A stretch of 64,000 nucleotides of DNA, taken from contig PSQN01000017.1 of the NCBI GenBank assembly GCA_002989075.1, positions 3,231,453-3,295,452 on the forward strand, written 5' to 3'. Shown here one piece after another: positions 12,154-46,100 of the stretch; position 1 is the first letter of the stretch; every line of letters begins with the position of its first letter. A program made the position numbers and the translations under genes. A model generated the notes under the pieces. The model searched no databases. It worked only from the letters and a program-made list of their open reading frames with translations, and had not been told where the DNA came from. The DNA comes from Arthonia radiata. Taxonomy: Eukaryota; Ascomycota; Arthoniomycetes; Arthoniales; Arthoniaceae.

Positions 12154-14538
12154 CTAGTTGCCATTCTGCTGCTGCCCCAGCACCGTCGGCACCCGGATCG
12201 TAACCGTGATCGCGTCGCGGCTGCTCTGCACATTGAGGTAAATGTCGTTCCCATTGTAGCTGTCGATCTCGCCAGTGCCTTTCTGGATATTCGCCTTGAC
12301 CTCGCGATCGCCGCCGCTCTGGCTGCCCTGGCTCTTCTGCGACACCATGCCGAGCACGTTGCCCGCGCCGTCGACAATGTTGCCCGCGCTGTCCACGGTG
12401 CTCTTGCCCGCCATCTTCGCGACGTCGCCCGAGACCTGGCCCAGGATCTTGCCGGAGTCATCGACGATGTTGCCAGCTTGATCGACGCCCTTGCCGACCA
12501 TGCCCTTCAGGCCTTCCATCGCCTCTTGGGCGGCGGTGGTGTCGCCTTGTAGCGCCTGTGGTGCGATTTCGGAAACTTTGCCGAGCGTCTTGCCTGCGTC
12601 GTCCATGATCTCGCCGGACGAGGAGACGGTCTTGCCGGCCATGCTGGAGAGGTCGCCGGTGGCTTTTCCGAGGATCTGGCCGCCCTCGCCGATGATGTTG
12701 CCGTCGTTGCTGATGGAGCCGCCGACGATGCCGGTCACGGACTTGAGACCGTCTTTAAGGGCGTCAGGCGCGATGCCGCCGAGTCCACCCAGGACGTTAC
12801 CGCTGTCGTCGACGACCTGGCCGAGCTCATTGATGGACTTGCCCGCCATATCGCTCACGTTGCCCACTGCGCTGCCAACTTTATTGCCCCCATTATCGAT
12901 GATCTGACCACTCTTGTCGACAGTGCCTCCCACGAGACCGGACACCTGACTGAGTGCGCTGGATGCAAGAGACGAGATGCCACCGCCAATGCCGCCAACC
13001 GTGTCGGTCACGCCTCTCGCGCCCATGCCGAGCATGTTAGATGCGCTCTCGAGGCCGGGAATGCTGGACATGCCGGGGAGGCTACTGCCACCGCCGCCAC
13101 CACCTTGCTTGCCTGTCGCGCCTTTCGCTTTGTCGGTTGCACCGCCAGCAGCACCTTGGGCTTGGTCGGTGACACCTTTGGCTGCGCCTTGAGCTTGGTC
13201 AGTCGCGCCCTTCGCTTGGTCTGTGGCACCTTTGGCTGCGTCTTGAGCCTTGCCGGCAGCGCCTTGGGCGTGGTCGGTTGCACCCTTGGCCGCACCTTGA
13301 GCTTGGTCTGCGGCACCTTGGGCTTGATCAGTCGCGCCGTTTGCAGCTCCTTGGGCCTGGTCGGGGAGACCTTTCGTGGCATCTTGAGCTTTGTCGGTTG
13401 CGCCCTTCGCAGCACCCTGTGCTTGATCGGTCGCACCCTTCGCCGCGCCTTGGGCCTGATCGGTTGCACCTTGAGCTTGGTCAGTGGCGCCCTTCGCTGC
13501 TTCTTGCGCCTGGTCAGGGAGACCTTTCGCGGCACCTTGGGCTTTATCGGTTGCACCCTTCGCAGCACCTTGGGCTTTGTCGATTGTACCCTTCGGCGCT
13601 TCCTGTGCCTGGTCGGTCGCACCCTTCGCGCTCTTCTGCGCCTTGCCAGCAGCACCCTTAGCTGTGTCCTGTGCTTGACCAGCGGCGCCCTTTGCGGAGT
13701 CCTGAAGACCACCAGCAGCGCCCTTGGCCTTATTCGTGGCTTGGCCAGCTTGGTCTTGGCCTTTCTTAGCTGCGTCACCGGCGGCTTTCTGAGCTTGACC
13801 ACCTTGAGGCGCGGCTTTGGATGCAGGCTTCTGTGCGGCCTTCTGGACTTGTTGAGTCGGCTCCTCGTCCTCGCCCTCGTCTTCTTCCTCACCTTCGTCA
13901 TGGTCTTCTTCGTCTTCGCCTTCGCCTTCGTCATCACCTTCACCCTCGTCGTCATCTTCATCTTCGCCTTGGTCGTCCTCAGCATCATCATCGTGACTCT
14001 CATCTTGGCCTTCGTCAGCCTGTCCCTCTTCATCGTCCATCTCCACAGATTCCTGTGCAGGCTCTTCGGACTCCTCGGGCTCCTCAGGCTCCTCAACCTC
14101 TGGCTCAGGTTCGGGTTCTGGCTCGGGTTCTGGAGCTGGCGCAGGCTTCTTCTTCTTCTTCATAGGCTTCGGCGCCGAATCTCCTGCGCCCTCGGGCGCC
14201 TGCTGGGGTTTGAACTTCTTCGCCGCGCTGGACGGAGTTGCGGATGGAGTCGCATTCTTAGACGGAGGCGCGGGCGTTGACTGTGCAGGTGTGGACTTGG
14301 CGGGTTTTGGTGTTTCTGAGGCCTTCGGAGTTTCTGGGGCCTTTGGTGTTTCTGGAGCTGGGGTAGTCTGAGTAGACTGGGATGCGTTCTTGGCAGCAGG
14401 CTTGAACTTCTTTGCCGCACTAGACGGGGTCGCGTTGGGTGTCGACTGAGCAGAAGCGGGCTTCTTCTTCTTTTTAACGGGGGTGTTGGGCTGGCTTGGA
14501 GCCTTGGAGGTGGCCGCGTTTGCGGATTCGGTGGACAT
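12154..14538 (-). CDS. Large LEA-like protein with 11-residue repeats and DUF3659-type repeats
   Basis: A single exon of 794 residues starting MSTESANAATSKAPSQPNTP; an upstream in-frame ATG at 14700 gives an unconvincing extension. Order of parts: a Lys/Pro/Thr-rich tail (1-130), a very acidic run (about 130-225), an LEA group-3-like helix repeat built on (K)GATDQAQGAA (about 280-475), a Gly-rich hinge, and then several DUF3659-like repeats (about 515-745) of the form GxIIDxGGNxLGxVxGD followed by MAGKxxxxxGEIMDDAGK. A short tail ends ITVTIRVPTVLGQQQNGN. LEA-type 11-mers and this repeat occur in fungal proteins annotated as LEA domain proteins. A role in desiccation, osmotic or wall stress is inference. 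It sits between the two small paralogues. Confidence 0.85.
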   Translation of the reverse strand: MSTESANAATSKAPSQPNTPVKKKKKPASAQSTPNATPSSAAKKFKPAAKNASQSTQTTPAPETPKAPETPKASETPKPAKSTPAQSTPAPPSKNATPSATPSSAAKKFKPQQAPEGAGDSAPKPMKKKKKPAPAPEPEPEPEPEPEVEEPEEPEESEEPAQESVEMDDEEGQADEGQDESHDDDAEDDQGEDEDDDEGEGDDEGEGEDEEDHDEGEEEDEGEDEEPTQQVQKAAQKPASKAAPQGGQAQKAAGDAAKKGQDQAGQATNKAKGAAGGLQDSAKGAAGQAQDTAKGAAGKAQKSAKGATDQAQEAPKGTIDKAQGAAKGATDKAQGAAKGLPDQAQEAAKGATDQAQGATDQAQGAAKGATDQAQGAAKGATDKAQDATKGLPDQAQGAANGATDQAQGAADQAQGAAKGATDHAQGAAGKAQDAAKGATDQAKGATDQAQGAAKGVTDQAQGAAGGATDKAKGATGKQGGGGGGSSLPGMSSIPGLESASNMLGMGARGVTDTVGGIGGGISSLASSALSQVSGLVGGTVDKSGQIIDNGGNKVGSAVGNVSDMAGKSINELGQVVDDSGNVLGGLGGIAPDALKDGLKSVTGIVGGSISNDGNIIGEGGQILGKATGDLSSMAGKTVSSSGEIMDDAGKTLGKVSEIAPQALQGDTTAAQEAMEGLKGMVGKGVDQAGNIVDDSGKILGQVSGDVAKMAGKSTVDSAGNIVDGAGNVLGMVSQKSQGSQSGGDREVKANIQKGTGEIDSYNGNDIYLNVQSSRDAITVTIRVPTVLGQQQNGN
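13110..13700 (-). repeat. Coding minisatellite encoding the 11-residue LEA-like repeat
   Basis: Inside the large LEA-like gene, about 590 bp consists of imperfect ~33-bp units whose translation is GATDQAQGAAK and variants (KGLPDQAQEAA, DQAQGATDQAQ, KGVTDQAQGAA). Unit boundaries slip by 4 residues in places (DQAQGAADQAQ), showing unequal exchange. Copy number is likely to vary between strains. Confidence 0.85.
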
Positions 14539-15666
14539 GATGTAGAGATTGAGTACTTTCGAGTAGAGGAGATAATTCAAGAGGTAAAGGTAGGAAGCTG
14601 CGTCGGTACTAGCAAGGTAGGAGAGGATCTGTATGTACTGGTGAGATTGTAGTCTTATGAAAGCACACCAAGAGTAGAGAAAGATGAGCGGTTCCGTCAT
14701 ATGTGGCTGGGAAATGAGCTTCTCATACTGCCGATGGCCGATGCACGATCCCCGGAGCGAGCGCTACTTTGGCGTCGTTTGCAAGAGGGCTGGAAATGGG
14801 GGTACGTACGTCGTGCGTTGACCTTCTAGACGCTGGGACTTGACGGGTATTAATTACAGGGAATGTTGGCACCCGTTGCTGTCGGTACGAATGGCGCGTC
14901 TGCGTGTGATCAGAAAATGGCTGGGCTTACAAGCTTGGGCGAAAGAGAGAGGGGGAACAGAGAGCTCGAAGGAGTTGGCGGGCCATGACGCAGGGGAGCC
15001 TTCCTCTTTCCAGCCGCTCACCTGGCTTCTTTTCGACAAAACGAGAGCGAGTCGATTAACCGCCCCGGTCTTTGTCGACTTGGCTTCTGAAGCGTGCCGC
15101 TCCACACGTTGCTCTGCGGTTCCCCGCCTTTCTGGGCGTCTAGGCCCTGCGGCTGCATGTTGGGATCTTCCTCACCAGCCACAACCTGCAGTCTGATGCA
15201 CGTCACTTCTGTACCTTTGTCCATCTCGAAAACACTCCCAGCTCCGAACGCGAGCTCTTCGTGGCATGATCAGTCAAGAAAGGCATGAGTTGCAGTGCAG
15301 TCAAGCAGCTTCTGCTTTCGGCTTAGACGTGGCTCGTACCTTCTCTGGAACGCTAAGATTGAGACGAAACAGCCTTTACCGGGCTGCTAAAAGGGCGGTG
15401 GCAGAGCTTAGAAGACGGTGTGGATTTCATCCCATTTCAAATCGGATTACATGAGCAAGCAGACGCGTGCATGTACGCCCTCAAGACTGAACCAACGCCT
15501 TGCGCTCCCGCCTCGCAGACAAGTAGATGCTGTGCGCTCGACCACTTCGACTGTCAAGCTGTCTCCGCCGTTGCAAAGTCTTTATGACGGGTTGCGACGG
15601 GTACCCAACGGACAATGTAAGGTGTGCGCCACGCGCGGGTAGGTTTCGGATGATGAAGGTCACATC
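14539..15666. other. Intergenic region between two LEA-cluster genes
   Basis: This contains the promoter and leader of the large gene starting at 14538 and the 3' flank of the small gene ending at 15667. Several open frames exist but none has a recognisable domain or splice logic. Confidence 0.45.
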
Positions 15667-17357: not shown

Positions 17358-20300
17358 ATGCAAACTACGAGTCGCACCGACGGTCAAGAACTCATGGATA
17401 CCCCAAGCAAAACCCCTAAACAGGGTGGCACCCCCAGCAAGGGCGCCGCAAAGTCTGCCCAAGGCAAGGCTGGCAGCACTGCTGGCAGCGCCAAAGGCGC
17501 CAAGTCACAAGGCACACAAGCAACCTCAAATGCTAAGAGCAACGCGAAGAAACAAGCTCCAGTACAAGACGACGATGTCGAGAGCAACGTCGCTGAGACT
17601 GAAGGTGACATCGACGAAGACGCCAACGAAGCTGCTGAGGATGGTGAGCAAGCCGTAGAAGGTGCAGCTGATGGCGAGGAAGGTGAAGAAGGTGAGGAAG
17701 GTGAGGAAGGCCAGGAAGAGGAAGAAGGTGACGAGGAAGAAGAAGGCGGTGATGATATCGTCCCCGCCGGCAAAGTTGGCGATGATGGTCAATCAGTACT
17801 CGACAACGAAGGCAGCGTCATTGGCAGTGTAAGCGGAGGTGGTGGCAAGAAGCTTGCCGGCCAGACCGTGGATCAGGAAGGCGATGTCGGTGAGTTCAAC
17901 CTTAATCATTGGCCAGTCACATGATATTTGGCTAACTTTACGAAGTGGATCAAGAAGGCAACGTACTGGGACAAGCCGAGCCCAGTGAAGCTGGTGGTGC
18001 AGCAGAGGGCGCTCAGGACGCAGCCGGTGGGTTACTTGGCAATGTTACTGGCGCAGTCGGAGGGATCACTAATCAAGTTGGTGGGATCGTAGGCAATACA
18101 GCTGAAGGCGTTGGCGATGTTGCTGGTGGTGACGTCGAGGGCGGCCTTCAAAAGACCGCCGGCGGCGCAGTCGAAGGCGCACAAGGCGTCGCTGGGGAAG
18201 CTGGTGAGGCTGCCGGCGGCGTTGTTGACGAAGCCGGCAACGCTGTTGGTGGTGTCTTCCCAGAAGCACAGGGCGCGCTATCACTTGGTGAGGGTGGACT
18301 TGTTGACGAGTCCGGCAAACTCATTGGTCAGGTTCCGGAAGAGCTTCAAGACAAGCTCAAGGACACTCCCATCAAAGAGATCTCACCAGAAGGCCAAATC
18401 ATCGGCGAAGACGGCGCTGTTCTCGGTAAAGCTCTCCCACCCGAGGTTAACGATGCTGTCGAGGGCGCAAAGGACACAGTCGGCGGCGTTTTCCCAGAAG
18501 CTGAGGGCGCTCTGTCATTAGGCGAAGGTGGTCTTGTCGACTCCACAGGCAAAGTCATCGGCCAAGTTCCCAAGGACCTACAAGACAAACTCAAAGATAC
18601 CCCGATCAAAGAGATCACGAAAGACGGTGACATTATTGGCGAGGACGGTGACGTACTTGGTAAAGCGACGCCCCCAGAGGTTGATGAAGCCGCAGAGGGC
18701 GCCCAAGATGCTGCAGAAGGTGCCAAAGACGCTGCGGAAGGCGCAGCGGAGGACGGCAAAGATGCTGCGGACGAAGTTGCGAGCCAGTTCCCAGACGCCC
18801 AAGGCATGCTGAACCTCGCGGACGGCAATTTGGTTGATGAGTCGGGCAATGTCATTGGCAAAGTACCCGAGGATCTCCAAGAGAAGCTAGAAGACACCCC
18901 CATCAAGGAGATCACACCAGAGGGCGACATCATCGGCGAAGACGGCGAAGTTCTTGGCAAAGCCGAGCTGCCCACTGCTGAGGATGTTGCTGAGAAAGCC
19001 AAGAGCAAGTTCCCCAAGTTTAAGGGTCTTATCAATTGCGACGAGAACGGAAACCTTTACGACGAGAAGGGCAGGCTCATCGGCTCTGTACCAGAGGAGC
19101 TCGTCGAGGACGTCCAAGGCACATCAATCAAAGAGATCACACCAGAAGGTGATATGATCGATGAAGACGGCAACAACCTCGGCAAAGCCAACCCACCAGA
19201 GGCTCTCGACTATTCCATCCTCGACGGCGCCACCGTCACTAAGACCGGTAAAGTTGTTGACTCTGACGGCAAGGTCGTCGGCAATCTCAAGAAGGGCAAC
19301 CCGAAGCATCTTGAGGGCAAGCAGTGTGACGAGAAGGGTGTCATTTGGGACAACAAGGGTAAGAAGGCCGGTCAAGCGGAACCATTGCCTAAGGAGCAGC
19401 TGGCAGACACCACCGTCGGTCCGTTTGACGACTTCCCCGATGCGAAGGTGTCCAAGAATGGCGACGTCATTTTCAACGACGAAGTAATTGGCAAGGTCGT
19501 GGAGGGTGACCCGAAGAAGCTTGCAGGCAAGACCGTCGACTCTGAGGGTTCTATCCTCGACAAGAATGGTAACGTCCTGGGTCGCGCTGAGCGCTACGAG
19601 GAGCCCGAGCCAGAAGAGGAGGCTCCACCCGATCTATCTGCTCTCGAGGGCAAGCGTGTCAACAAGGCCGGCAACGTGGTCAACACCGATGGCACTATCG
19701 TCGGTAAGGTTGTTGAAGGCGATCCGAAGAAGCTCGCAGGTGAGTGTTTGATGCTGCTTTTCGTTTGCCCCTTGCCGACGCTAATCTCTTTCCAGGCAAA
19801 ATGTGCGGCAAGAACGGTGAAATCTTCGATGAGGGTGGCAATGTTGTCGGCAAAGCTGAACTCGTCAATCCATCAGAGGGCAGCGGTACCAAAGAAGGTC
19901 CATTCTCCGCATTCCAACCTTGCACTGTCACCAAAGACGGCACTGTCGTCGGTCCAGCTGGCAACATCGTTGGTCGTCTAACCCAAGGTGATCCAAAGCA
20001 ACTCGAAGGCCGTCAAGTCGATCAAGACGGTGACATCACCGATTCCAACGGCAACTCACTTGGCAAGGCCGAGCGCTGGGAACCCGAAGAGAAGGAGAAG
20101 GACGTCCACCCTTGCGCTGGCCTCAAAGTCAACAAAGAGGGCAACGTCATCAACGCAGACGGCGACATGGTTGCTAAGCTCACCAGCGGCGAGCTCAATC
20201 GCTGCCGCGGCAAGGAGATTGATGATGATGGCGACGTCGTTGACCAGAAGGGTACCTCGATCGGTAGTATCACCTTAGTCGAAGACCTCAAACCAGAGAA

Positions 20301-23250: not shown

Positions 23251-23460
23251 TTGCGTTGATTCAAACTTTCGAGTAATGTCATGGTCTCGGCGAAGTTCGC
23301 TGACTTGCAAGGGGTGTTGATTCATGCGAATCTTGCTTGCGTGCACAGTTAGGGCTACGATGAGACCGAGAGGATTTTCTTAGTCTGCTACCATGGGCAA
23401 AGTTAATCATATTGATAACTACAAACGTTGACGTCACAGCTTAGCGACGACGTGGCCGAG

Positions 23461-23510
23461 GTTAGCGAGGTCATCATTTCGCAGTAGGATTTTCGCTGAC
23501 ATCAATTCAG
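23461..23510 (+). other. Spliceosomal-type intron 1 of the tRNA-Ser gene (D-loop)
   Basis: 50 nt from GTTAGC to ATTCAG, with a CTGAC branch-like motif at 23496-23500, ten nt before the acceptor AG end. It splits the D-loop between GAG and TGG. Size and signals match the protein-gene introns of this window. Confidence 0.8.
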
Positions 23511-23518
23511 TGGTTAAG

Positions 23519-23569
23519 GTGCGCAGCCTGTGCATCCATGTTATCAGTCCACGTCTAATGCGTGGCTAG
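23519..23569 (+). other. Spliceosomal-type intron 2 of the tRNA-Ser gene (D-stem)
   Basis: 51 nt from GTGCGC to GGCTAG with a CTAAT branch-like motif at 23555-23559. Removal joins TTAAG to GCGATTGA and restores the 3' side of the D-stem (GGC) and base 26. Confidence 0.8.
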
Positions 23570-23583
23570 GCGATTGACTAGAA

Positions 23584-23617
23584 TTGGAAAATTTCTCCGG
23601 AAAAATTCCAATAGCAT
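23584..23617 (+). other. Canonical anticodon-loop intron of the tRNA-Ser gene
   Basis: 34 nt inserted after base 37, the universal eukaryotic position cut by tRNA splicing endonuclease. It has no GT/AG ends. A TTCT at 23593-23596 can pair with the AGAA of the anticodon region, as canonical tRNA introns do. It overlaps a near-palindrome (23583-23612). Confidence 0.75.
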
Positions 23618-23641
23618 ATCAATTTCTTTCGAGAGCGTAGG

Positions 23642-23690
23642 GTATGCTTATCGCTCTCCACTCTTCAATAACGTTCTAACACTCTACGAG
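23642..23690 (+). other. Spliceosomal-type intron 3 of the tRNA-Ser gene (T-stem/T-loop border)
   Basis: 49 nt from GTATGC to TACGAG, with a strong CTAAC branch-like motif at 23676-23680. The acceptor is GAG instead of the usual YAG. Removal joins GTAGG to TTCGAGT and completes a five-pair T-stem. The GAG end also keeps most of the B-box intact in the unspliced DNA. Confidence 0.75.
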
Positions 23691-23707
23691 TTCGAGTCCT
23701 GCCGTCG

Positions 23708-23761
23708 GTAAGTATCCATAACAAGCCTACAAATTGTCCTCACAATAACACATTGCTACAG
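23708..23761 (+). other. Spliceosomal-type intron 4 of the tRNA-Ser gene (acceptor stem)
   Basis: 54 nt from GTAAGT to GCTACAG, the best donor of the four, with an AATAAC branch-like motif near 23744-23749. Removal joins CGTCG to TCG and completes the 3' strand of the acceptor stem plus G73. Confidence 0.8.
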
Positions 23762-23784
23762 TCGATATTTCACCAAACATTCAA

Positions 23785-23791
23785 TTTTTTT
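23785..23791 (+). terminator. Probable RNA polymerase III terminator of the tRNA-Ser gene
   Basis: A run of seven T lies 20 nt after the tRNA 3' end. Within the locus the longest T run is four. This is what a Pol III gene should look like. Confidence 0.7.
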
Positions 23792-43138: not shown

Positions 43139-46100
43139 ATGGCGACAGCCTCTGTAGCGGGCCACTCCGAGGCTATGGAGATCGACGACTTCGAAGCCTT
43201 CGCGAACAGCAATCCGCGGGAATTCAAGCATGCCAATGGCAGCGTCAATGGCAACGTCAAGCAGTCGGAAGACTTCGAGCTTGATATGGACCGTTGGTCG
43301 ATCAGGAATGGGGCACCACGTGCTCCTAAGGCCATGGTACGTGATAATCAATAGCTCCAAACAAGCGTATGCTTGAGTGCCGAAGGCGATGGGACGAGAT
43401 GTCGCCTTTGTGAGAGAGAAAAAGAGGTGGCTGGTGATGAAGATTGAACGAGAGCTTTGCTAACCCTAAGCCCTGCAGCTCTCAAACGCGACGCGGTCCT
43501 ACTGCACGCCCTCAGGCAACTTTGTACGTTTAATCATCCCAGAATATTCTGTGCGTGGAAGGCAGCAAAATACGACAAGCCCAGAAACAGCATTGATACT
43601 TGCACAGAAAGCTGTGGTCTAACCTGCTCGCTTTAGGTCAACTCAGCCAACAAGGGTCACTACATCTCCGCGCAGCGTGCCTGGGAAGCCGAAGGTCGTC
43701 ACTCTCAGTCGCGCTGGGCGCCGGACGGACAGCTGAATAATATGGCGGACTATGATAGACGTCGCGACGATCGACCGCGCAACGATCGGCCGCGACATGG
43801 TGGTAGAGGAAGAGGTAGAGGATATGGCGGACACGGGGGAGGAGGGTACGGCGGAGGTGGTGGTCGCAAGCGTGATTTTAGAGGTAAGGCCTTTAAATTA
43901 TGCGGTACGGAGGCATGGACTGACGTATTTGCAGAGTACGACGAAGATGAGGGTTATGACCGCCCACCACCACCGCGCCGCGAGCCCCCGTACCAGAGAG
44001 TGCGCAAGCATGTCGTTGAGATCGCAGACTCGGTGTGTTTAATTCAATGAATGAGGCATGAGAGTACGTGCTAATCAATTGGTAGCCTATGAGAGATCCA
44101 ATAGAAGACGTGCAGGCTCTCGCCAGCATGATTGCGAAAGACTGGGATGACAATTTCTTCCAACAGCACACACCCGAGCTGCTGCTTACTATGTACGTTT
44201 CTCGAAACGCTGCTACAAGAGCCGAGCTGACATCGTCAGGGTCATTGAGCAGCCGCTTAAGATCCCATACATCGCCGGCCTTATCCTGAGCTTGAACCAG
44301 AAGAACCCCGAGATCGTCGAGAAACTGCTGCCGAAGTATGCAGAGCGTACGCAAAAAGCCATTGAAGCCGGAGAGTGGCGCACATTGAAGCTGTTGCTGC
44401 GCTTCTGGGCGTGTATTGGAGGACTTTTCGAAGAAAACCCGGTATTCAAGGTGCTAGAGGAGCTGTTCAACAGAGCGATCGATCTGCAGACAGCTTCATC
44501 GGATGATGTAGGGCTCAAAACCCAACGTTTATTAGTAGACTACGTCGCTAACAGCATTGACAGGTCCTTGGGCTTGAGATCACGAAGATCATCCTGCTTA
44601 CGATACCATTCGTCGTATCTGCACCGTGCACCAATCGCGAGGAGCTCCAAAAGAAGGCGTCAGAGCTGCTTGACAAGACGGAGGTCATCGCAGCGGCTCC
44701 ACCAGCCGCAGAAGATATCGTCAACCCGTACTTGAGCGTCGAAGGTGAGGAAGCGCCTGAGGTGCAGCCGGTGCTGAAGCTGCTTCAATTGCAGTTGCGC
44801 AGCGAAGAGAGCAGCCAATGGCAGCTTCAATTCCTCACGAAATACTACAAGGACCCTACTGAAGGCGACTTGATGGATGGGATGAGCGAGGCCATGAAGA
44901 AGCACGAGTTCCCAACCATCGAGGTACCATCAACTGTGAAATCAGGCACAAGCCCGTTGTATCCAGAGATCTACTTCTCTCTTTACGCTGATCAAGATGT
45001 CGAAACAGTACCGCCAACACGACACTTGGCTTCTTCTGTCATTCGGGACGTAGTTGTCGACACCATCAATGTCCTCGACTTTAACCGTCAACAAACAGCC
45101 AAATACATGACCGAGCTGGACTGTTACTGGCCTAGAGACACCTTCGCGAAGCGAGCCGCCCAATTCGATCGTCTGCGAGAAGCTCCAGAGGGAATGCCAA
45201 CGTGGAAGATCGAAGACGTAGCCATCGATGCCATCTTCTCCCAGATCATGAAGCTCCCCAACTCTGAGCACCGAGCTGTCTACTATCACTCCATCATCAC
45301 CGAGATGTGTACCGTGGCACCTCAATCGATTGCACCAAGTCTGGGACGTGCAATTCGATTCTTGTATCGCAAGCTGAACGTCATGGATCTTGAGCTTGCG
45401 TATCGCTTCGCTGACTGGTTCGCGCACCACCTCTCTAACTTTGATTTTCGGTGGAAGTGGGCTGAGTGGCAGGACGATGCTGATCTGGCGAGACTGCACT
45501 GCCGCAAAGCCTTCGTCCTGGGTCTGCTCGACAAGGAAGTTCGTCTGTCATTCGCGAGTCGCATCCGCAAGAGCTTGCCAGAGCCCTTTGCAGAATGCAT
45601 CCCGACAAGCATGGACAATGACATCCCTGAGTGGAAGTACAAAGCAGAGACCGCAACGTTTCACACTGAGGCCAAGCAACTCGTGGACTGCCTTCGGACT
45701 AAGAAGACGGAAGAAGAGATCTCGCCGGTCCTCGAAAAGATCATGCAGGAAGCTTCACAAGACTCCGCGCACACATCGCCTCACCTTTTGGCTATTGAGG
45801 CGTTTGTTACCACGATATGTTATGTTGGTTCAAAGTCTCTCTCCCACGCGCTGTCGTTTGTCGAGCGTCACAAAGATCAGCTCTTCGCCTTCTCCCAAGA
45901 CCCTCTGCTTCCTCCCAACGCCAACGACGCCGACCCGGAAGCTACATCGACTGCCAACCGCGTCCAGATCGTTGCATCTGTAGTCAACTACTGGCGTGAC
46001 ACACAATCCGGTGTGGCCGTCTCACTCGTCGATAAGCTCCTCAACTACGGCATCGTACTCCCAACCTCTGTCGTTGACTGGACTCTTGGCATTTCAGACC

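Follow-up and report, generated by a model that had tools for sequence, protein, structure and literature searches.

Can a nuclear tRNA gene be interrupted repeatedly by introns of the kind found in messenger RNA (mRNA) genes and still give rise to a functional tRNA? The question is raised by a gene for tRNA-Ser(AGA) in a 64-kilobase stretch of the Arthonia radiata genome (contig PSQN01000017.1), referred to here as the window. The canonical eukaryotic tRNA intron is single, lies between positions 37 and 38 and requires neither GT-AG ends nor a branch motif. The Ser(AGA) gene has such an intron too, of 34 nucleotides (nt), and an earlier note on this DNA claimed that four spliceosomal-type introns split the gene in addition. 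Our analysis of the window and of the whole assembly favours the reading that Ser(AGA) is a functional nuclear tRNA gene in which a canonical intron is accompanied by four U2-type spliceosomal ones, and that the genome has at least 18 tRNA genes of this type, Ser(AGA) included; judging from the DNA, we put the probability of this reading at roughly 0.9.

Coordinates are positions within the window unless an L-numbered locus is named. Read with ARAGORN and with a cloverleaf finder (a C program), the gene has the following parts:

23446..23460, + strand: exon 1, positions 1-15, with the acceptor 5' strand and the first half of the A box (ARAGORN and finder parse)
23461..23510, + strand: spliceosomal-type intron 1, 50 nt, between positions 15/16 (GTTAGC..CTGAC..CAG)
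23511..23518, + strand: exon 2, just 8 nt (TGGTTAAG), with the D loop and the first base of the D-stem 3' strand
23519..23569, + strand: spliceosomal-type intron 2, 51 nt, between positions 23/24 (GTGCGC..CTAAT..TAG)
23570..23583, + strand: exon 3a, positions 24-37, with the anticodon AGA
23584..23617, + strand: canonical-position tRNA intron (37/38), 34 nt (ARAGORN and finder)
23618..23641, + strand: exon 3b, positions 38-53, with a 13-nt variable arm
23642..23690, + strand: spliceosomal-type intron 3, 49 nt, between positions 53/54 (GTATGC..CTAAC..GAG)
23691..23707, + strand: exon 4, positions 54-70, with the T loop, the T-stem 3' strand and the start of the acceptor 3' strand
23708..23761, + strand: spliceosomal-type intron 4, 54 nt, between positions 70/71 (GTAAGT..CTCAC..CAG)
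23762..23764, + strand: exon 5, positions 71-73 (TCG), adjoining the 3' trailer

Joining the exons (23446-23460, 23511-23518, 23570-23641, 23691-23707 and 23762-23764) gives 115 nt, or 81 nt without the canonical intron, and for the 115 nt ARAGORN reports tRNA-Ser(aga), placing a 34-nt intron at 37/38. The stems of the product comprise 7 acceptor, 3 D, 5 anticodon and 5 T pairs, 20 in all, of which 19 are Watson-Crick and one is U50-G64. The product also has the invariant bases T8, A14, G18, G19, A21, T33, T54T55C56G57A58 and C61, as well as G73, and its variable arm reads TCT-TTCG-AGA. The earlier note had described four GT..AG segments of 50, 51, 49 and 54 nt plus the 34-nt intron, a complete serine tRNA after joining, and CTGAC, CTAAT and CTAAC branch motifs in three of the four introns; the segments proved exact at every coordinate, and the fold and the motifs are present as described. 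Its suspicion that a standard scan would be blind to the gene was likewise correct: ARAGORN calls nothing at the unspliced locus and no gene in the raw window, where an Rfam search at the gathering score has no match either.

GT and AG are frequent, so that many joins are possible and four excisions might happen to produce a cloverleaf by chance. The finder reads a cloverleaf along the DNA, in which GT..AG segments of 40-80 nt may be skipped. Broken pairs and lost invariant bases are penalized, and so is every intron, which costs 1.0 if it has a branch-like YTNAY and 2.0 otherwise, plus up to 1.0 for a poor donor or acceptor; the penalty for canonical introns was later refined. With up to five introns and a penalty of at most 8, it returned one locus from both strands of the window, namely Ser(AGA), at a penalty of 6.0. 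Neither the reversed window nor 120 copies of the window shuffled by dinucleotides (7.68 megabases, Mb) gave a match. These controls, together with 17 further genes of the same kind, leave chance with a negligible probability.

The further genes come from a survey of the assembly (33.5 Mb, 16 contigs). An Rfam tRNA search, in which 63 of 1065 candidates were scored, gave 16 matches. B-box patterns occurred at 36, 34, 22 and 13 places, against 54, 35, 66 and 40 for reversed-pattern controls; since each count is below its control, most of these places are due to chance. The finder was run on all Rfam and B-box places with penalty limits of 5 to 9 and a maximum of 2 to 5 introns. Another pattern, TGTTCRANTCA, matched 121 times (control, 123), and no tRNA was found in the 30 loci examined of 100 listed, one of the listed places outside these 30 being the already known Met gene L004. 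In total, 32 tRNA genes were parsed from this partial sample: 14 hold no spliceosomal-type intron, and 18 hold 34 of them, as follows.

Ser(AGA): four
Ser(CGA): three
Gly(GCC): three
Asn(GTT): three
Initiator Met (L098): three
Ala(CGC): two
Tyr(GTA): two
Thr(TGT): two
Glu(CTC): two
Arg(CCG): two
Gln(CTG), Leu(CAG), His(GTG) and Thr(AGT): one each
Lys(TTT), Leu(TAA), Ala(TGC) and Ile(AAT): one each

The Rfam and B-box searches are biased towards genes without interruptions and with an intact B box, and the finder towards motif-rich introns, so that 18 of 32 describes the sample and is not a rate for the genome. The 17 additional interrupted genes, whose introns are alike in length range, donor and branch motif, nevertheless remove the weakness of a reading built on a single locus, and the claim of a serine tRNA gene split by spliceosomal-type introns stands. 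The 34 introns are located in the D arm (12), the T arm (7), the anticodon arm (6), the variable region (6), the acceptor (2) and at position 9/10 (one). About 170 nt separate the initiator gene L098 from a B-box match that is on the other strand and is not its own, and L128, with one acceptor mismatch, has the highest fold penalty of the 18. Loci L015, L084, L097 and L102 repeat genes already counted, and a weaker second reading of L014 was dropped. For the Phe gene of L008, the parser gave the anticodon TGA and ARAGORN gave GAA, which we adopted.

Some of the surveyed loci are unusual in other ways. ARAGORN reads L012 (301-477) as tRNA-His with a 103-nt intron; it is better explained as Arg(CCG) with two GT-AG introns, one of them directly before the anticodon. 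In L008 (1350-1646), a tRNA-Phe and a tRNA-Pro gene stand 3 nt apart, both with unusually long canonical-position introns (about 72-76 nt) that are G+C-rich by eye and without clear splice signals. A tRNA-Trp gene adjoins a Met-type (CAT) tRNA gene with a 7-nt gap in L006 (1501-1652). The tRNA-like sequence at L115 (336-502) has good acceptor, D and T arms and an anticodon arm that is not readable; with a penalty of 6.7 it was left out of the count, and it may be a pseudogene or contain a different type of intron.

Are the interrupting segments spliceosomal introns? All 34 have GT..AG ends, which the search imposed, and their lengths range from 49 to 61 nt (mean 53.8). At the donor, +5 is G in 31 of 34, +3 is A or G in 28 and +6 is T or C in every case. 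A CTRAY motif occurs in 30 of the 34 introns, compared with a mean of 4.9 and a maximum of 12 in shuffles, and for 31 of the 33 introns having YTRAY the branch A is 10-15 nt ahead of the last base. The single intron without YTRAY is intron 4 of Ser(AGA), which has CTCAC only. Of the exon bases directly 5' of the introns, 22 of 34 are G. When each intron was shifted by up to 10 nt, the fold never improved, and all 34 borders were best or tied-best. For comparison, the window encodes nuclear cap-binding subunit 1, with these introns:

43884..43934, + strand: cap-binding subunit intron, 51 nt
44033..44085, + strand: cap-binding subunit intron, 53 nt
44193..44239, + strand: cap-binding subunit intron, 47 nt
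44508..44563, + strand: cap-binding subunit intron, 56 nt

These four are GT-AG introns with CTGAC, CTAAT or CTAAC motifs, the reading frame stays open across all four joins, and their range of 47-56 nt confirms that the Ser(AGA) introns are of the size found in nearby protein genes. A comparison of this protein with a protein collection gave 908 matches from 8000 scored candidates; of the 120 matches listed, the top five show 75, 70, 58, 59 and 50% identity. The best named one is from Chrysothrix sp., an Arthoniomycete of a lichen genus (49% identity), and the other named ones listed are mostly from Pezizomycotina, such as Aspergillus and Penicillium, which points to a filamentous ascomycete, possibly one near the lichen-forming Arthoniomycetes.

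The GT-AG segments might instead be excised by a relaxed tRNA-splicing endonuclease, as are the ectopic introns of red algae and archaea. That enzyme must be active in A. radiata, because canonical-position introns occur in 22 of the 32 genes. A full 4-base-pair central helix of a bulge-helix-bulge was found at the exact cut sites of 1 of the 34 introns (shuffles, 2%), a weak test in view of 1 of 22 for the canonical introns. The uniform 49-61 nt, the donor +5 G and the branch motif 10-15 nt from the end have no known role in endonuclease cutting. We regard an endonuclease origin of the excisions as very unlikely and keep to the spliceosomal reading.

Introns of this kind are also found in another small RNA gene of the genome. 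All three U6 matches (L129, L130 at about base 1500, and L144; 47 of 2173 candidates scored) have a GT-AG intron with CTGAC as its branch motif, and the insertion site, after CCCCTGCA, is common to the three. The seven 5S rRNA matches (47 of 1547 candidates scored) each match model positions 1-120 over 119-122 bases, and since the full model is spanned within this length, they have no such intron. In a blastn comparison among the 34 tRNA introns and the three U6 introns (E<=0.01), the sole similar pair consisted of two U6 introns. The tRNA introns are thus not recent copies of one element, and introner-type mobile introns were rejected as an explanation.

A further possibility is that the interrupted genes are pseudogenes hit by insertions, while intact copies elsewhere do the work. 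The stems of the interrupted genes equal those of the uninterrupted ones in quality (mean fold penalty, less 1 per intron, 1.82 for n=18 versus 1.76 for n=14), and the supposed insertions are uniform introns. When the 18 genes are left unspliced, ARAGORN calls eight, all with another isotype, and none correctly; once spliced, all 18 are called, 14 of them with the isotype and anticodon of the finder. For L014, L028, L111 and L112, its name differs from that of the finder, or there is none, even when spliced. Unspliced L014, Leu(CAG), and L033, Lys(TTT), are named SeC and Gly, so scanners blind to introns would misname tRNAs of this genome.

Intact copies were sought by DNA search with the spliced sequences of Ser(AGA) and initiator Met (E<=10); nothing was returned by this search, to which interrupted copies are invisible. 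An intact Cys tRNA used likewise as a control recovered exactly itself at 100%, and it is this control that makes the 81-nt search informative. For the 16 other interrupted isoacceptors, no intact copy surfaced in the general tRNA searches, no one-by-one search having been made. Four genes with the anticodon CAT are in the sample, and no other anticodon was seen twice. A54 and the pair A1-T72 mark an initiator, and L098, which is interrupted, is the single CAT gene to have both. Initiator tRNA is indispensable; if L098 is the only initiator gene, its three introns must therefore be removed. That an initiator copy is missing from the assembly is unlikely but not impossible, and the 16 large contigs argue against it. 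Altogether, a pseudogene explanation is highly improbable, even more so than excision by an endonuclease, and functional genes remain the preferred reading.

Which polymerase would transcribe such genes? Three elements in or near Ser(AGA) bear on this question:

23408..23420, + strand: AT-rich, TATA-like stretch upstream, a weak candidate element
23689..23699, + strand: B-box-like AGTTCGAGTCC across the intron 3/exon 4 border, a putative element
23785..23791, + strand: oligo-T run TTTTTTT, 20 nt past position 73, a candidate RNA polymerase III (Pol III) terminator

Because intron 3 ends in AG, the B-box sequence is nearly regenerated at its end, and AGTTCGAGTCC would persist as a B-box-like element in the unspliced gene. 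More generally, the A box is split in 6 and the B box in 3 of the 18 interrupted genes, and both are split in two, including Ser(AGA). Of the interrupted genes, 17 of 18 have a T run of at least 4 within 59 nt downstream and 12 of 18 a TATA-like stretch upstream; for the uninterrupted genes, the figures are 11 of 14 and 9 of 14. As both gene classes look alike upstream and downstream, one transcription system is suggested, probably Pol III.

The interrupted genes could alternatively be transcribed by Pol II, with mRNA-type co-transcriptional splicing of a capped precursor. Spliceosomes usually act on Pol II transcripts, and the split A and B boxes of Ser(AGA) should weaken a Pol III promoter. 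On the other side are the T runs and TATA-like stretches shared with uninterrupted genes, and also U6, which is normally a Pol III gene and which here has a like intron and ends in T runs. Transcription by Pol II thus appears unlikely, though less so than the alternatives weighed above. It departs from our reading in the polymerase only, and the likelihoods given to the two are not mutually exclusive.

The splicing and transcription of the interrupted genes, their polymerase and the order of steps are what we infer from these features. Under the reading that we prefer, a Ser(AGA) precursor of about 350 nt or more would be made, probably by Pol III, and would end at the T7 run. The spliceosome would first remove the four introns of 49-54 nt, since only their excision allows the acceptor stem and both the D and the T arm to form. 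Processing of the ends, and removal of the 34-nt intron by the tRNA-splicing endonuclease and ligase, should come after this step.

Several points weigh against this reading. The survey is partial: with 63 of 1065 candidates scored, it comprises 32 genes, lacks several isoacceptors and includes no Val gene. The split A and B boxes should leave Pol III promoters weakened, and the introns do not avoid T runs to a significant degree (0 of length 5 or more, with 1.8 expected). The internal exons can be very short: 6-8 nt separate the introns in 6 of 16 neighbouring pairs, and none is shorter than 6 nt, a floor that may reflect a minimum exon size or splicing of one intron at a time. Since 32 of the 34 introns were tied in the shift test, the fold alone leaves most borders unfixed to the base. 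The search with spliced DNA cannot see interrupted copies and did not return the focal Ser(AGA) gene itself. The finder, finally, mildly prefers a branch-like motif and a good donor, so that introns that are poor in motifs, lack GT-AG ends or fall outside 40-80 nt may escape it. A rerun with flat penalties (GT..AG and 40-80 nt only), without branch or donor preference, took in just the 18 loci already known; it gave the identical product at 18 of 18, and the motifs therefore did not decide the parse there.

How do these introns compare with known systems? We found no published precedent for spliceosomal introns in tRNA genes in the open-licence literature, preprints aside, which is no proof of novelty, and the accessible portions of three works on tRNA introns report none (PMC3978253, PMC11782384, PMC4090602). 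Broader searches led to reviews on other types of tRNA intron. The putative introns are a known kind of intron in a gene class in which none was found described. Several introns at non-canonical tRNA positions also occur in archaea and in Cyanidioschyzon merolae, in which 34 of 43 nuclear tRNA genes contain introns, are permuted or both (PMC3978253, in its accessible portion). Those are bulge-helix-bulge introns cut by an endonuclease, whereas the ones here have GT-AG ends and a branch motif. Insertions in the D and T arms of eukaryotic tRNAs, again at non-canonical sites, are likewise known from the Guillardia theta nucleomorph, where the introns have 3-24 nt and many lack a defined bulge-helix-bulge (accessible portions of PMC4090602 and PMC3978253); unlike those of A. 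radiata, they are presumably too short to be spliceosomal.

A closer likeness exists to the spliceosomal introns in nuclear ribosomal DNA (rDNA) of ascomycetes and of lichen fungi in particular (Bhattacharya et al, 2000, cited in PMC8527467), which are also ectopic in structural RNA genes that are not transcribed by Pol II. According to the accessible text of PMC8527467, yeast correctly removed one rDNA spliceosomal intron from Pol I transcripts, and a link between rDNA introns and desiccation tolerance has been proposed; the word tRNA occurs nowhere in its main text. In contrast to the Pol I rDNA introns, those described here are in tRNA genes, with up to four per gene and in 18 of the 32 genes found. 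The window itself has two long open reading frames (12154-14700, - strand, and 17945-19981, + strand) that by eye are repetitive, G/D-rich and LEA-like; a link to desiccation tolerance is possible. Tani and Ohshima, in 1989 and 1991, and Canzler and colleagues, in 2016, are said to have described spliceosomal introns in fungal U6 small nuclear RNA and U3 small nucleolar RNA genes. Such introns are close precedents (PMC5832005, PMC10484740, as far as accessible), being normal spliceosomal introns in small non-mRNA genes, as in all three U6 matches here. They concern one gene family each, and tRNA introns are not reported in the accessible part of PMC5832005.

In this lineage, the spliceosome would very probably be an obligatory machine of tRNA maturation: more than half of the tRNA genes found are unreadable without it, and U6, a core component of the spliceosome, itself appears to need splicing. 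The dependent genes include the only initiator Met gene detected and the three-intron Gly(GCC) gene. The usual description of nuclear tRNA introns has a single class, which lies at 37/38 and is handled by an endonuclease and a ligase dedicated to it. In A. radiata, a second class is spread through the tRNA body and resembles the introns of mRNA genes. Because mRNA-like introns cut the tRNA genes, the mRNA-splicing machinery would also be needed for making tRNAs. If the introns are spliced, translation is tied directly to the spliceosome, tRNA genes join the non-Pol II genes that gained spliceosomal introns, and tRNA scanners miss or misname such genes. The finding opens tests of spliceosome action on tRNA precursors, of the lower limit of exon size (6-8 nt) and of the build-up of introns in translation genes of lichen-type fungi.
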